Shown piece after piece: positions 327 to 10,960 of a DNA stretch of 47,088 bases (position 1 is its first letter; the number at the start of each line of letters is the position of its first letter). The DNA comes from Bacteroidales bacterium (GTDB taxonomy: Bacteria; Bacteroidota; Bacteroidia; Bacteroidales; UBA1715), in the NCBI GenBank assembly GCA_012519815.1, contig JAAYPM010000006.1, positions 1 to 47,088 on the forward strand. The letters are read 5' to 3'. A model generated the notes under the pieces. That model saw only the letters and a program-made list of their open reading frames with translations, had not been told where the DNA came from and did not search any database. Position numbers and translations under genes: made by a program.

Positions 327-3299
327 TTATTCCTTTATAAAATATCCCTTTCCGGGTTCAAAATTATGTAAAGAATTATGCGTTCCGTTTGGCTGCCAAA
401 ATCCGTCGAAGTTTTTGATAATACTATTATTCGTAGCATTAAAATAATCAGATATTGGAATAGGAGCAAAGTGCGAATTACCCTGTGCAGGATAGCCTAT
501 TAATTTCCAACCATGGGCTACGGAGGGAATGTCCGAAGCTTGCATTGGTGTTCCGGTAAGAAATACGGTGCCCGGCTCCTCCATATACACTAAATATCCT
601 TTTCCGGCAGTTATCGTTTTTAAAGAATTAAATGCTGCATCTTGGTATTTATTCCAAAATCCATCTTCGTTTTTTATCACCTGTACATTAAGCGTGGCAA
701 ACATCTGATCTATGCTGCTATCTTGCACATGGATATGTGTAGATATAAGATTCCAACCCTTGTGGAGTGATATAGATTGCTGTATCTCTACCAAAGGAGT
801 ATAAGGCGTATAATGTATAAATCGTGGTTTTGTAACTTCTTGTTTCCAATAATTAAACACTTCGCTGCTCGATTCCACTCGGCTATCGCCCCACACATCT
901 GCCCAGCCCTTAGCCACCCAATTGCTATTAATATACACCCATGCTTTTATATCATATTGATTAATAATAGCAATGACTTTTTGTAAATATCCAATTTTAT
1001 GAGCATCAGATGTTTGTGCTGTAGTGTGAGATTGCACGGCAGATTCGGCAATAACAATAGGTTTTTTTATACTATCTCTCGCCCAATTTAAACATTGTTT
1101 TATATTATCATCCATTTCTTGCGTTTGCGGACAATTATTAAATGGCGGAGTTTCGCCTTCCCAGGTGGGCCAACACATATCGTGGTTAAAAAACGATAAA
1201 GCAAACGCATCTACATATTCATCGCCTGGATAGAGATTTTTCGCATCACTAATTCCTCGTACTGGGTGATACACAAATAATACATTATCGACATTATTTA
1301 CAACCCGTATCCGATGTGCTATATAATTATATGCATTTTTATATGCTTCTAAATCAAACTCTTCTACTTCGGCAGCACGCTCTAAAGGATTAATACCAAG
1401 GTCATTATATTTTATAAGAATATCAATAAACTCGTTCGTAGTTTTATTAGCAAATGCCATAAGACTTACTTCGTATCCGATTCGCACTAAAAACTTTATA
1501 TTTCTTTTTTTAAACGATGCAGCCAAAGCATCAATTTCGCTATCCCACACGCCATTTGCAATATCAACACAGGCCTGCCAACTTGCATTTGGACCAGAAT
1601 ATCCACCTGCGGCAGGATTATCTTTAATACTAATAGCCATCATTGTATAGGAGCCGGGATAATTTGATTCCACATATTGCAAAAACGCCTCATTATTTCC
1701 GTCATCGCCCTGATTAATTGCCCCATTATATATTTCGGCATAATGCGAAGAACCAGCAGGAGCTAAATTCATAGCTGCCACATAATCTGTATATTCTTGC
1801 GTATATGTTTGCCCAACCATAAGGAGCGTTTTTCCATTTTCTGGAAGAGTAACATATCCATAATTTTCTGATACAGTATCAAGCACTGTAATGTTTTTAA
1901 CATAGTGTTTATTACATTCTATTTCGGTGGTTACTACAGACACAGCAAGTGTATAGTTGCCAAGTTCAAGATTATTCAATGTATAAGAATACGGTGCAGA
2001 ATAATCTGTAAATAATATTGTGCCTGAATTTTCATCAATAAATTGCACATAAGAAATTAATTCTTGATGTGTTATTACTTCTACTGAAATATGTGCATCA
2101 TTACCTACTCTGATTTCTGATGGTGCCTGAACAGAAATTGCAGGACAAACGGTGCTTCCATAAGGAAACGGAACAAGTTGGTCAAATAATTGCTCGGAAC
2201 CATGCAACCAAAAATCGGTAGAGATTTCTTGCAGCCATTTATTTGTAATTTCAGCATGTGCTTCAACTCGTGTATCTCCCCAATATCCTTCATTATAAGG
2301 CGGAGCCCATTTTGCTTGAGAATCCCAATTACAATTTATATATGCAACCGCCTTAATAACATCATTATGTGTATGTATATAATTAAAAAACGGTTCAAAC
2401 CATTCATTCCAAATTTGTGTAGCTGTTTTAGTAGTAGCACCTGTGCCCGAAACACCATCGAGCATTGTATTAATATTTTTTCTTTGTAATTGCAATAAAT
2501 CATATCCTTGTGGAGCAGATTCGCACACCATAACAGGTTTTTGATGCAATCGTGCTAACTCCAAAACCTCATCAGCCAAAGTTATTTGCAATGGATGGCT
2601 ACTAAGAAACCATGACAATCCTAACCAATCAACATATTCATCTCCCGGATACCAATCTGCAATATTTTCATGTACATTTTCAACAATATCATCAACAGGC
2701 GAAGTGCACGCTTGCAAAATCATTTCGCATTTTGGGGCAATTGGTCTAATTACATCAACAATATATTTATATGCATTTTTAAAATTTGCTCTGTTTTCAT
2801 ATCCAATATTCCAATTACCATCAAATTCATACCCAATACGCAAATATGTAGGTTTGTCTATGCTTTTAATAAATTGAGCTAAACGAATAATTTCTGTATC
2901 ATACTCACCCGACGCAATGTTTGTAAGCCCATTAGGAAAAAACTCTTCGGTCATATATAGTCCAATTGCTAAGGTAGAATGTGGATATCCTAAAGCAGCA
3001 TTTCGTGTGTTTAGCGGTCCCGAACCCCAATCAATATCGGGAGCAGCGGTTCCATCTAATGTTTCTCCTAATCCACCAAAAGGGAAATGTGCATTTGGAT
3101 TTGCACAATCATACAAACTAATGTATGAGGTAATTCCTCCTGGAGTTGGAAAAAATTTAGATGAGGTATATCCATACACAGACTGTAAATCTTGTCCAAT
3201 AATTAACAAGGTTTTGTTATGTGCAGGAACAAATTTTTGTGCATTACTAAACAGATTTAAACAGATAAGGCATACAAGAAGTACATTGTTTTTTTTCAT
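327..3299 (-). CDS. Secreted protein with two GH26-like glycoside hydrolase domains
   Basis: This 990-residue protein has a Sec signal peptide (about 1-20, cleavage near SNA-QK). Domain 1 (about 22-385) carries RIGYEFDGNW with a likely acid/base Glu158 and VMVCES with a likely nucleophile Glu260, the two-glutamate layout of GH26-type (beta/alpha)8 enzymes. An Ig-like linker follows (about 385-475). Domain 2 (about 485-825) repeats the plan with RIGYE (Glu610) and IVIAES (Glu752). Both share PGDEYVD, a YIN.NW strand and a WGD.RVE segment, so they look like an internal duplication. The C-terminus has two copies of a GWNLI...DGFW...GKGY repeat (about 842-990). I see no clear type IX sorting domain. 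The substrate is unknown; beta-mannan or beta-glucan would be guesses. The gene stands alone beside an IS end. Confidence 0.7.
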   Translation of the reverse strand: MKKNNVLLVCLICLNLFSNAQKFVPAHNKTLLIIGQDLQSVYGYTSSKFFPTPGGITSYISLYDCANPNAHFPFGGLGETLDGTAAPDIDWGSGPLNTRNAALGYPHSTLAIGLYMTEEFFPNGLTNIASGEYDTEIIRLAQFIKSIDKPTYLRIGYEFDGNWNIGYENRANFKNAYKYIVDVIRPIAPKCEMILQACTSPVDDIVENVHENIADWYPGDEYVDWLGLSWFLSSHPLQITLADEVLELARLHQKPVMVCESAPQGYDLLQLQRKNINTMLDGVSGTGATTKTATQIWNEWFEPFFNYIHTHNDVIKAVAYINCNWDSQAKWAPPYNEGYWGDTRVEAHAEITNKWLQEISTDFWLHGSEQLFDQLVPFPYGSTVCPAISVQAPSEIRVGNDAHISVEVITHQELISYVQFIDENSGTILFTDYSAPYSYTLNNLELGNYTLAVSVVTTEIECNKHYVKNITVLDTVSENYGYVTLPENGKTLLMVGQTYTQEYTDYVAAMNLAPAGSSHYAEIYNGAINQGDDGNNEAFLQYVESNYPGSYTMMAISIKDNPAAGGYSGPNASWQACVDIANGVWDSEIDALAASFKKRNIKFLVRIGYEVSLMAFANKTTNEFIDILIKYNDLGINPLERAAEVEEFDLEAYKNAYNYIAHRIRVVNNVDNVLFVYHPVRGISDAKNLYPGDEYVDAFALSFFNHDMCWPTWEGETPPFNNCPQTQEMDDNIKQCLNWARDSIKKPIVIAESAVQSHTTAQTSDAHKIGYLQKVIAIINQYDIKAWVYINSNWVAKGWADVWGDSRVESSSEVFNYWKQEVTKPRFIHYTPYTPLVEIQQSISLHKGWNLISTHIHVQDSSIDQMFATLNVQVIKNEDGFWNKYQDAAFNSLKTITAGKGYLVYMEEPGTVFLTGTPMQASDIPSVAHGWKLIGYPAQGNSHFAPIPISDYFNATNNSIIKNFDGFWQPNGTHNSLHNFEPGKGYFIKE

Positions 3300-3777
3300 A
3301 CTTTTCCTTTTTTATTTTTACATGCAGTAATATTACAGTTCTTTCAAAAACAACATCTTTAAATATGTTTCAGATATCTATAAATTTGATTACAGTAAAA
3401 AAGGGGTATTGTTTTATGTCTTAGTTTTTTATAGTTTAGGGCAATTTGAGAAATAAAGGTAGGGTGATAGTTAAAATTGGTGTTTAATTGTAAAACACTA
3501 TTTTTTAACAAATACAGCTTTTATATATTTGCAATATAATTTGTTTTTACTTGAATAAGCAAAAAGAAATTTTAAACTTTGAAAGGTTTTCTAATATAAT
3601 TTTTTTATTTTTGAATAAAGTTACATCTTGCGTTAATTGTCTGATTGTTAGGAGAGTGTGTTGTGTTGTTGGCATGAGCCACTTTTTTATTTGTTTAAAA
3701 AACACAACGGATAACGTAAATATAAAAAGTAATTAATTAAAAGAATATAGAGTCTTTAAAAATAAATATACATAAAA
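3300..3777. other. Intergenic region of 478 bases without a convincing gene
   Basis: This divergent region separates the GH26-like gene from the secreted protein at 3778. It contains a TAnnTTTG box (TATATTTG, 3524-3531) facing right but with no well-spaced TTG, and a short hairpin (GTGTTT 3480-3485, AAACAC 3493-3498) followed by a T-rich run. A 61-codon TTG-start frame at 3551-3736 encodes a Cys- and Phe-rich peptide with no recognisable pattern and is probably not a gene. Promoters for both neighbours are expected here, but I cannot place them firmly. Confidence 0.4.
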
Positions 3778-4629
3778 ATGAAACGTATTATTTTTTCACT
3801 TTTAACCTTTACTTCGCTTGTGGGCTTTGCACAACGTCCTACTGCAACTCCCGAACAGCTTGAAGCTTTTTTTACAACAACTACGTATGTAATTAAACGA
3901 GATGACCTCATGAATGAGTACAATTCTCATATGGAGCAAGCGTTTGAAACTGCCTGGAAAAACACAAAGTTTGAGTTTATTACGTATGCCGAATTTCAGG
4001 AAAAACAAAAAGACCCAAATGCTTCGTTTGTGTTGTTAACTGAAACAAGTTTTTTGAATGATAAAGTTGTTACGGGATATAATTTTATAAGCGTTGTGCT
4101 TGGCGGCGATTATGAAAATATTAATAAAATGCCCGAAATTTGCTCGTTTCCTCTTATTTCTTCAGATACCGAAGACGAAGAAATTATGGCAACGCTTCCG
4201 GCAATAATGAAATTTATTACACAACATATTGCCACAATGAAGTCAAATCCAAAACTTTTAAAAGACAAAAAATATACATTTTATACAAAGCAAAAAAAAG
4301 CAATTGTATCTAAAAATATGTATCTTGTAAAAGAAAATCAAACAGAAACATTGCAAAAAGAAAATGCAATACAATCATTGTATAAAGGTAAATTTACATT
4401 TGTTTCGTATGATGATATTGCTACTGCAATTGCAGAACAAAATAATGCTGTTGTATTTCACATTCGTGTGGCTGCCAATAAAGCCACAGTTGGAGCACGG
4501 TGCTATACCATAATTATGGGAGTTGATGGCAGCTTATATTATTATAATTATCATACTATTAAAAACGCAAAAACAGCAAATGGTATCACTGCAAAACAGT
4601 GGAAAGCATTTAATAAATTTGTAAAATAA
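3778..4629 (+). CDS. Conserved secreted protein of unknown function
   Basis: The 283-residue product begins with a signal peptide (MKRIIFSLLTFTSLVGFAQ, cleavage after about residue 18), so it is exported to the periplasm or outer membrane. The rest is soluble, with no membrane segment and no metal or catalytic motif that I recognise. Features such as TTTYVI near the start, a central EICSFPL segment and LYYYNYHTI near the end resemble a family of uncharacterised Bacteroidetes proteins of about 280-300 residues that I recall without a named function. It lies 33 bases upstream of ruvB on the same strand and may be co-transcribed with it, but nothing ties the two functionally. Confidence 0.75.
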   Translation: MKRIIFSLLTFTSLVGFAQRPTATPEQLEAFFTTTTYVIKRDDLMNEYNSHMEQAFETAWKNTKFEFITYAEFQEKQKDPNASFVLLTETSFLNDKVVTGYNFISVVLGGDYENINKMPEICSFPLISSDTEDEEIMATLPAIMKFITQHIATMKSNPKLLKDKKYTFYTKQKKAIVSKNMYLVKENQTETLQKENAIQSLYKGKFTFVSYDDIATAIAEQNNAVVFHIRVAANKATVGARCYTIIMGVDGSLYYYNYHTIKNAKTANGITAKQWKAFNKFVK

Positions 4630-8493: not shown

Positions 8494-9045
8494 GTGGAAA
8501 AAATTATTCTCGGTATTGACCCCGGCACAAGTATTTTAGGATACGGTTTAATTAAAATTCAAGGAAAAACCATTTCCCTTATCACATTAGGGGTAATAAA
8601 TCTTACAAAATTTGATGATCATTATATAAAACTACAAAAAATATTTTTACGACTTTCGGGACTTATCAAAGAATTTTGCCCCGATGAAATGGCTTTAGAG
8701 GCTCCTTTTTTTGGAAAAAATGTGCAGTCTATGTTAAAACTTGGAAGAGCACAAGGAGTGGCAATGGCGGCCGGACTTATGCATGAAATTCCTATAACAG
8801 AGTATGCTCCTCGAAAAGTAAAAATGTCTATCACTGGCACAGGAACCGCTTCAAAAGAACAGGTGGCACGTATGCTTGCTAAAATGTTACATACCGACGA
8901 AAAACCTGAATTTCTTGACGCCACCGATGCACTTGCAGTAGCGGTTTGTCATTATTATCAAATTTCAAATCCAATTCATGCGCTTGGTAAAAGTGCAAAT
9001 TCATGGAAAGATTTTATTCAAAAAAATCCTGGTAGGGTTAGGTAA
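8494..9045 (+). CDS. ruvC: Holliday junction endonuclease RuvC
   Basis: RuvC resolves Holliday junctions with RuvAB. The 183-residue protein has the RNase H-like fold signature GIDPG with Asp9, a second acidic residue in ALEA (Glu69) and the C-terminal pair Asp142 and Asp145 in LDATDALA, which form the four-carboxylate active site. The [21 protein letters not shown] segment is typical of the family. The start is GTG at 8494, 11 bases after the kinase stop, and is needed to keep the first beta strand. Downstream is the accessory patch with the DUF1016 gene, so ruvC marks the edge of the conserved block. Confidence 0.95.
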
Positions 9046-9095
9046 AACAATTTAAAATATTTGACTATATTTATCAAGTTAAATTACATAATTAA

Positions 9096-9285
9096 TATGC
9101 AATAAATGAAACAATAGCTGAACTTACAGAAGAACAAGAGTTAACCATAGAAATGGAAATTAGAACTGGTAAAACACTTTGCTATTTCGGGAGTGAAAAT
9201 ACAATATAAAACACCTATAAAAGACTATATGTTCTTTAAAGGTGAAGCAGTAAATACGATTAATAAAATAGAAGATGAAAATTAA
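9096..9285 (+). pseudogene. Coding remnant, possibly of a type III restriction subunit
   Basis: Two short open stretches lie in different frames. Frame A (9096-9209) reads NETIAELTEEQELTIEMEI then RTGKTLCYF. The LTIEMEIRTGKT part resembles the motif I region of type III restriction (Res) subunits, usually METGTGKT. Frame B (9151-9285) reads ELVKHFAISGVKIQYKTPIK and continues to IEDEN then stop, overlapping the start of the next gene by 11 bases like the tail of an upstream operon member. Neither has a plausible start. The simplest reading is a gene reduced by an internal deletion and frameshift. The Res link rests on one motif and is weak. Confidence 0.35.
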
Positions 9286-10258
9286 TAGCAGACATAACTC
9301 TCTTGTTAATGAGATAAAAAGTATTCTTAAAACAGCTCAGTCAAAGGCTGTAAGTGCTGTTAATTCTGCAATGATATATGCTTATTGGGGAATAGGCAAA
9401 AGAATTGTAGAAGAGGAGCAAAATGGAAGTGAAAGAGCTGATTATGGTGCGTTTTTATTAAAACAATTAGCAGAGAGTCTAACAAAAGATATAGGAAAAA
9501 AATTTGATGAACGAGAGTTGCGAAGAATTAGACAGTTTTATCTCATTTTTCCAATTCGGGACACAGTGCGCCCCGAATTAAGTTGGTCACATTATCGCTT
9601 GTTAATAAGAGTTGAAAATGAGACAACAAGAAAGTATTATTTAAATGAATCGATTTCACAACATTGGAGCACAAGAAAGTTAGACCGTAATATTAGTTCT
9701 CAATTTTTTCAGAGAATGTTATCTAATCAAGATGCTACGCAAAAAACAGAAAAAGAGGATGTTATTGATAACAGAGATTTTATAAAAAATCCGTATGTAT
9801 TAGAATTTTTAAACCTTCCAGCAAATTTAACTCACAAAGAAAAAGAAATTGAAAAAGAGATTATCAATCATCTGCAATTATTTTTATTAGAATTAGGTAA
9901 GGGATTTGCTTTTGTAGCACAACAAAAATTAATTAGAACAGAAACTTCAGATTTTTTTATTGACCTTGTGTTTTATAATTACCTATTAAAATGCTTTGTG
10001 ATTATTGATATTAAATCAACTAAACTTACTCATCAAGATATAGGACAGTTAGATATGTATGTGAGAATGTTTGATGAAATAGAAAAGTTAGAAAACGACA
10101 ATCCAACTATTGGAATTTTGCTATGTGCAGATACAGACAATGTTGTGGCAAAATATTCTGTTTTAAACGACAATAAAAATTTATTTGCATCAAAATATCA
10201 GTTGTATTTACCTACAGAAGAAGAACTACAAAAAATAATTAAAAAGGAATTGTCATAG
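9275..10258 (+). CDS. DUF1016/YhcG-family PDDEXK nuclease
   Basis: This 327-residue protein matches the YhcG (DUF1016) family, which has an N-terminal DUF1016_N domain (about 7-150, with ELSWSHYRLLIR at 101-112) and a C-terminal PDDEXK nuclease domain. Likely catalytic residues are Glu206, Asp230 in DFFIDLVFYN and Asp245-Ile-Lys247 in VIIDIKSTKLTHQD. The motif has Asp-x-Lys where many relatives have Glu-x-Lys, a conservative change I believe is common in Bacteroidetes members. The family is often found beside restriction-modification genes, and its exact job is not settled. Here it is intact but flanked by fragments: its start overlaps an upstream remnant and a 34-codon ORF follows after 2 bases. 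Confidence 0.88.
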   Translation: MKINSRHNSLVNEIKSILKTAQSKAVSAVNSAMIYAYWGIGKRIVEEEQNGSERADYGAFLLKQLAESLTKDIGKKFDERELRRIRQFYLIFPIRDTVRPELSWSHYRLLIRVENETTRKYYLNESISQHWSTRKLDRNISSQFFQRMLSNQDATQKTEKEDVIDNRDFIKNPYVLEFLNLPANLTHKEKEIEKEIINHLQLFLLELGKGFAFVAQQKLIRTETSDFFIDLVFYNYLLKCFVIIDIKSTKLTHQDIGQLDMYVRMFDEIEKLENDNPTIGILLCADTDNVVAKYSVLNDNKNLFASKYQLYLPTEEELQKIIKKELS

Positions 10259-10260
10259 TT

Positions 10261-10365
10261 ATGACACAAGAAAAATATAATCCCTTAGAACGTGTGCAAT
10301 CTCACGATTGGAATAAAGAGCGATTAGAACAATTGAAAAAAGCATTAGATAAAGGGTTTTATTAG
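10261..10365 (+). CDS. 34-residue ORF, probably the truncated start of a lost gene
   Basis: An ATG 2 bases after the DUF1016 stop opens a 34-residue frame beginning MTQEKYNPLERVQSHDWNKE and ending LDKGFY. It is charged, with no signal peptide or membrane segment. The close spacing and normal-looking amino acid content suggest it was the first part of a larger gene co-transcribed with the nuclease and cut short by deletion. A genuine small protein is possible. I do not recognise a family. Confidence 0.35.
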   Translation: MTQEKYNPLERVQSHDWNKERLEQLKKALDKGFY

Positions 10366-10390
10366 GAGAACTCAAAAACACTATAAACAC

Positions 10391-10960
10391 ATGAAAAAAC
10401 ATACTGTACCTATAAAAAAATGTATTCTCTGTATATTTTTATCATCTTGTTTTTTACAACAATATGCTCAAGAATTTAAAGGAGGGATTTTAGGCGGAAT
10501 TACAACAAGTCAAATACATGGAGATGGAGTTGGTGGTTTTTATAAAATTGGAGGAACATTTGGGGGATTTGTACAAAGAGAGTTTTCACCAAAAATACAT
10601 GGGCAATTTGAATTGCGATTTTCGCAAAAAGGCTCGGGAGATTCGTATGGAAGTTTTAAAATTCATGTGGGATATGTAGAAATGCCTGTTCTTGTAAAAT
10701 ATGCTTTGCCAAATGATTTTACACTATTTGGAGGATTAGGTGCCGGAGTACGAGTGTACGAATCTTTAAAAACACCCGGTTTAAAAGTTAAAACAAACGA
10801 TTTTGCTCCTATTGATATTCCGTTTTATATAGGAGCAGAATATCATCTGTCAAACGCACTATATTTTGATGTTCGGAGTGCTTATTCTTTGTTGCCAATT
10901 AATTATAAATACATACATTGGTGCTTATATGCATCTATACATGTATATATTTCACAATAA
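10391..10960 (+). CDS. Outer-membrane beta-barrel protein, PorT-like
   Basis: The 189-residue product has a signal peptide ending near QQYAQ (about residue 26) and then alternating, Gly- and aromatic-rich strands typical of small eight-stranded barrels of the outer-membrane beta-barrel group (PF13568-type) common in Bacteroidota. Supporting patterns are the early GILGGITTSQIHGDG strand, FELRFSQKGSG, VEMPVLVKYALP and the closing ALYFDVRSAYSLLPIN. The protein ends with YISQ rather than the common Phe. Function is unknown. It lies 15 bases before ubiX on the same strand, but a functional link is unlikely. Confidence 0.78.
   Translation: MKKHTVPIKKCILCIFLSSCFLQQYAQEFKGGILGGITTSQIHGDGVGGFYKIGGTFGGFVQREFSPKIHGQFELRFSQKGSGDSYGSFKIHVGYVEMPVLVKYALPNDFTLFGGLGAGVRVYESLKTPGLKVKTNDFAPIDIPFYIGAEYHLSNALYFDVRSAYSLLPINYKYIHWCLYASIHVYISQ

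Follow-up and report, generated by a model that had tools for sequence, protein, structure and literature searches.

Members of the DUF1016/YhcG family are already known as phage-defence candidates and are represented in PADLOC by the profile PDC-S02. PDC systems are putative and without experimental validation, having been found by "guilt-by-embedding", according to the accessible part of their description (PMC10855318). In Methanosarcina acetivorans, one YhcG homologue accompanies a type I cluster, as related in the accessible part of PMC1189080. In the accessible parts of PMC1189080, PMC13356809, PMC10855318 and PMC11341870, and with subscription journals mostly outside the search, we found no account of a DUF1016 gene inside a type III restriction-modification operon. 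The locus described here lies in a stretch of 47,088 nucleotides from a Bacteroidales bacterium (GenBank assembly GCA_012519815.1, contig JAAYPM010000006.1), which was analysed as a whole and is hereafter called the window. It belongs to a 2.26-Mb draft genome of 146 contigs that is 94.9% complete.

The closest described arrangement is found in Salegentibacter echinorum (L102) and Mesonia oceanica (L103), both of which carry a complete operon in the order XRE-type regulator-res-DUF1016-mod. These two loci are the best by E-value among the best 80 of 460 confirmed DUF1016 relatives, and their DUF1016 proteins are 76% identical to that of the window. In L102, Res is about 905 aa and Mod 686 aa long. 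Specifically, PADLOC assigns the L102 Res and Mod proteins to REase_III and MTase_III, and Pfam recognizes ResIII and RE_endonuc in Res and N6_N4_Mtase in Mod. Additionally, the N-terminal 120 aa of L102 Mod show 32.8% identity to the mod gene product of phage P1 (E 6e-7). In such a whole operon, the DUF1016 protein would add a second nuclease beside Res.

The window retains the same order as the L102 and L103 operons, with homologous res and mod pieces flanking the DUF1016 gene on the proper sides and with the same DUF1016-mod junction, but most of its res and all of its mod except the start have been lost (Table 1). Used as a query, the L102 regulator finds nothing in the window at E≤1. The sequence-only reading had taken this patch for what might be left of a larger locus; that suspicion proved right, since two intact operons with DUF1016 between res and mod are available in L102 and L103 and the scraps match them, and the parent of an anonymous decayed patch now has a name, a type III restriction-modification operon.

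Table 1. Features of the decayed type III patch and its neighbours in the window.
Feature	Position	Strand	Basis
ruvC, intact left neighbour	8494..9045	+	Pfam RuvC, E 1.6e-42
Spacer from the ruvC stop to the first clearly res-derived codon	9046..9101	+	composition; L102 res matches begin only at 9099
res remnant A, Res codons 64-88, altered Walker A	9102..9176	+	alignment with L102 Res
res remnant B, C-terminal Res codons from 869 to the stop, other frame	9172..9285	+	
DUF1016/YhcG nuclease gene, intact	9275..10258	+	both Pfam domains
mod remnant, beginning of the type III methyltransferase gene	10261..10365	+	homologous to about mod residue 32
Outer-membrane beta-barrel (OMP) gene, right neighbour	10391..10960	+	Pfam OMP_b-brl, E 2.1e-12

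Upstream of the DUF1016 gene, the stretch reads INETIAELTEEQELTIEMEIRTGKT and then, in a second frame, KHFAISGVKIQYKTPIKDYMFFKGEAVNTINKI, which align to residues 64-88 and 869-901 of L102 Res, respectively. In remnant A, the Walker A motif has changed from METGTGKT to MEIRTGKT. Measured on L102, about the first 63 codons of res are missing, and the gap between remnants A and B amounts to about 780 codons (2.34 kb). By the Pfam positions of L102, this internal loss takes nearly all of the helicase part together with the endonuclease domain except its last residues. What the window holds of Res is thus pieces in two frames, not a complete protein with helicase motifs and an endonuclease domain. 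The junction between the two remnants lies within AAACA at 9172-9176, and AAAC stands at both edges of the deletion in L102 and L103; the internal deletion may have arisen between these short AAAC repeats. A two-frame coding remnant had been proposed at 9096-9285, and its coding nature is real, although the homology starts only at about 9099-9102. Its overlap with the start of the nuclease gene, which had also been pointed out, measures 11 bases. The first 50 bases behind ruvC (9046-9095) contain just 12% G+C.

On the other side, only 2 bases separate the DUF1016 stop from the mod start, and TAGTTATG at this junction is identical in the window, L102 and L103. The downstream 34-codon ORF, seen before as a small ORF without a name, does exist, but it is the start of mod: it matches Mod residues 10-32 at 78% (window 10279-10347), and past residue ~32 it continues into an unrelated or unclear tail and then a stop, so that no complete Mod methyltransferase is present in the window.

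Several comparisons show that these scraps are real pieces of res and mod. Against the full L102 proteins they score 43.1 bits (Res 869-903), 39.7 bits (Res 64-100) and 45.1 bits (Mod 10-32). When both flanks were shuffled by single bases 500 times, the highest score was 25.0 bits, and elsewhere in the window neither L102 Res nor L102 Mod has a match at E≤10. Across the whole genome, the L102 mod query yields a sole match at E≤0.001, at 10276-10374 (1.1e-6), and the res query yields only two, at 9118-9273 and 9099-9221. When the limit is relaxed to E≤1, the res query finds the scraps (1.1e-5 and 5.7e-4) plus one other place at 0.06. With a single mod match and no further res at E≤0.001, the draft genome therefore shows no other such type III system. 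Within the scraps, 3 of 25 invariant columns are changed, two in Walker A and one the A of AP.K; these columns were defined among up to 14 intact operons, and just four of these operons cover the Walker A piece. Taken together, these findings make it very probable that the patch is what remains of a type III restriction-modification operon, res-DUF1016-mod in layout, that was gained by horizontal transfer. The cell, by this account, could neither restrict nor methylate with this type III system.

Between the two remnants, the DUF1016 ORF is complete, with 984 bases and 327 aa, and the earlier description of an intact protein with its key residues holds in full. Pfam detects both DUF1016_N (PF17761; E 1.2e-41, 142.5 bits against a cut-off of 32.8) and YhcG_C (PF06250; E 4.9e-55, 186.1 bits against a cut-off of 32.5). 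The protein was aligned with its relatives in a set of 93 sequences including the window, from which two with stops and two partial copies from its own genome were removed. In this alignment with 88 relatives, it retains all 35 invariant columns and 75 of the 76 columns conserved at ≥95%. The PD-(D/E)XK site is present in the C-terminal domain as D230 and D245-I-K247; D230 and K247 occur in 89 of 89 rows, and position 245 is D in 60 and E in 27. Compared with its family, the protein itself is therefore unremarkable, sharing both domains, D230 and K247 and keeping within the D/E choice at position 245, and its broken context is the sole difference. PDC-S02 is likewise its best PADLOC profile (E 9.3e-133), but the embedding operon is destroyed in the window.

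In the structure model of the DUF1016 protein (mean pLDDT 69, pTM 0.43), residues 189-284 form a predicted core of helix-strand-strand-strand-helix-strand. The top Foldseek match is 2vld, a Pyrococcus repair endonuclease, with E 4.7e-4 but a TM of only 0.23, and the third is EndoMS, with E 1.3e-3; the TM values of the two are 0.22-0.23. The N-terminal helical domain, at residues about 29-150, resembles the DNA-binding structures of Noc/ParB with Z scores of up to 8.8, a middling strength for a helical domain, and HTH_ParB is found at E 0.0041, below the Pfam cut-off. A sequence search with DUF1016 against solved structures gave none at E≤0.01. The fold matches, all of middling strength, support a DNA-binding nuclease in outline only. 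If the protein is still made, its N-terminal domain would bind DNA and its PD-(D/E)XK domain would cut it.

The closest DUF1016 relatives, at 71-77% identity, are records from Salegentibacter, Mesonia, Bacteroidetes, Flavobacteriales, Oleispira and Methylobacter (best 80 of 460), the Oleispira and Methylobacter records being MAG contigs that could be misbinned. The best match in a same-genus genome reaches 34%, and the family genomes searched give at most 58%. Because relatives at 71-77% occur in such distant records, and because a coupling-protein gene lies near the L102 operon, we infer a horizontal origin. This gene, of the type IV secretion kind, stands upstream of the operon at L102:2920-4500, suggesting a conjugative element as the vehicle of the L102 operon. 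Viral contigs contain one DUF1016 relative at 58%, and the 457 DUF1016 records on plasmids are all under 60%. Base and codon composition are ambiguous as a sign of foreign origin: among the 36 ORFs of the window, the DUF1016 gene has the fourth lowest total G+C, an ordinary third-position G+C and the sixth highest codon-use distance.

Around ruvC the genomes differ: the one same-genus genome has ruvC and OMP-ubiX on separate contigs with other neighbours, and the gene order of the ruvC region in the window is not shared in four family genomes (G002, G004, G005 and G009). In an order-level relative (G022), ubiX follows ruvC immediately, without DUF1016 or the OMP gene in between.

Among the 80 nearest DUF1016 loci (best 80 of 460), this res and mod stand beside DUF1016 in two, L102 and L103, a lower bound since in 17 of the 80, L104 and L106 among them, one flank is shorter than 600 bases. 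DUF1016 often has a type I methyltransferase or specificity gene beside it. In particular, with neighbours taken up to 1200 bases away and trimmed to 600 aa, and with loci lacking a neighbour in range excluded, the type I methyltransferase model PDLC03019 matches 13 of 75 upstream and 18 of 71 downstream neighbours of these 80 loci, and the type I specificity model matches 13 of 71. An assignment of the window remnants to a type I system was rejected, because the pieces match type III proteins.

Other type III operons were drawn from six of 12 mod-match loci and from 17 further loci. Excluded from the count of res-mod gaps were loci with mod before res (L198, L201, L202, L214, L215), loci with no res on the stretch (L216, L221, L222, L225) and two duplicates (L223 and L224, the same places as L217 and L219). 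The operons that were counted resemble L102 and L103 in having res and then mod on the same strand. Unlike the window, eight of them (L199, L200, L209, L210, L212, L213, L217, L220) have a res-mod gap without gene-size content. The gap of L197, an order-level relative, holds a RhuM-family gene and a 23S-IVP-like (23S rRNA intervening-sequence) gene at 2770-4181, and the gap measures roughly 400-530 bases in L211, L218 and L219. Searches by tblastn (E limits 1e-5 and 1e-4; short flanks) found no DUF1016 in these other type III loci, so that the case for DUF1016 in a res-mod slot is built on three examples, L102, L103 and the window. From these few cases, the res-mod gap looks like a slot for passengers. 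In L198, a 778-aa ORF, with what resembles an ATP-binding loop on inspection by eye, lies between mod and res (L198:1287-3623). A family-level relative carries a RhuM-like piece of 28 residues (68%) just before a DUF1016 gene (L091:10107-10190).

A dN/dS comparison had been proposed as a check on the nuclease and was carried out. Under a codon model with nine sequences, the window-branch omega of DUF1016 is indeed low, at 0.038 versus 0.047 elsewhere, and fixing omega at 1 costs 33 log units. However, the dead res/mod scraps, over 79 codons, have a window-branch omega of 0.02, and fixing it at 1 costs 7.4 log units, which leaves the test undiagnostic. The trees were preset, as a polytomy for the nine DUF1016 sequences and with the window as sister of L102 and L103 for the scraps; the window branch of the scraps hit the upper length bound of 20, and an omega of its own improves their fit by only 1.65 log units. 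The absolute omega values are rough because synonymous change is saturated. Since the omega of the scraps is as low as that of DUF1016, a low omega cannot show that DUF1016 is still selected, and dN/dS was rejected as proof of its retention; the value of 0.02 also implies that most change predates the decay. More generally, a low dN/dS on a long branch is uninformative on selection after decay unless dead neighbours are tested alongside. When a neutral last segment was added, the smallest length tried, 0.001, fitted best for both DUF1016 and the scraps, and a segment of 0.1 costs DUF1016 2.5 and the scraps, a quarter as long, 0.6 log units. The decay of the operon looks recent.

The DUF1016 gene has most likely survived through the recency of this decay, with some chance that it has been kept as a stand-alone nuclease. 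That it is a passive survivor which will be lost too is a reading on which we stand evenly divided. The controls with the scraps and with the neutral last segment are best fitted without any measurable neutral period after the decay, and a DUF1016 copy of the same genome, on contig C84, already has two stops, but the deletions in the window hit both partners and spared the nuclease gene, whereas about 4% of random positions of a ~1.17-kb block along the 5.8-kb operon would take in the whole of DUF1016, a post hoc figure chosen after the data were seen. The same figure speaks for the reading that selection has kept DUF1016 as an anti-phage nuclease acting on its own once the restriction partners were lost, and so do the intactness of the gene, its typical residues at conserved sites and the low omega with its margin over neutrality. 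L105 points the same way, with a DUF1016 76% identical, whose 8.6-kb contig shows neither res nor mod; its neighbours there encode an ABC transporter and a 176-aa protein that Pfam does not match at E≤0.001. The nuclease may have been kept for its own function, yet we hold this only tentatively, given that the dead scraps show an equally low omega and that the shortest neutral segment fits best for scraps and DUF1016 alike. Furthermore, between ruvC and DUF1016 we found neither a sigma-70-like site on the + strand (6 observed versus 8.5 expected over 8950-10500) nor a Bacteroidetes-type promoter pattern (5 observed versus 6.2 expected in the window). With its passenger nuclease intact and its carrier operon dead, the locus is a clean case for asking whether DUF1016 proteins act alone. 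A bolder proposal, that DUF1016 is a self-sufficient defence module which rides in the res-mod gap of type III operons and, as may also be the case for RhuM in that gap, can persist when the operon is lost, strikes us as doubtful; if it were true, the window would show the module shedding its carrier.

Two further explanations concern the origin of the patch itself. As no relative among the genomes examined has an intact operon between ruvC and the OMP gene, the piece could have been imported already truncated, by recombination, in which event the type III operon never worked at this site. The relatives examined share neither an empty nor a full site, which is consistent with such an import, but the internal res deletion, by which the Walker A and C-terminal pieces became joined, must then first have occurred elsewhere, and we consider this history quite unlikely. 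It is more improbable still, to the point of being hardly credible, that an assembly error joined unrelated pieces: the window is indeed a contig of a many-contig draft, but the operon order is kept, the DUF1016-mod junction is the same as in two other genera, and no second res or mod copy that could have been mixed in was found in the genome. A decayed type III operon remains our preferred reading of the patch.

The genome of the window has four other DUF1016 places. The copy on contig C84 is broken, with both stops inside the matched piece (L090:183-957); one copy stands beside a type I specificity gene and another close to a transposase gene where a contig ends. The fourth, 48% identical to the DUF1016 gene of the window, lies upstream of AbiEi/AbiEii, a type IV toxin-antitoxin pair (L087:580-3416).
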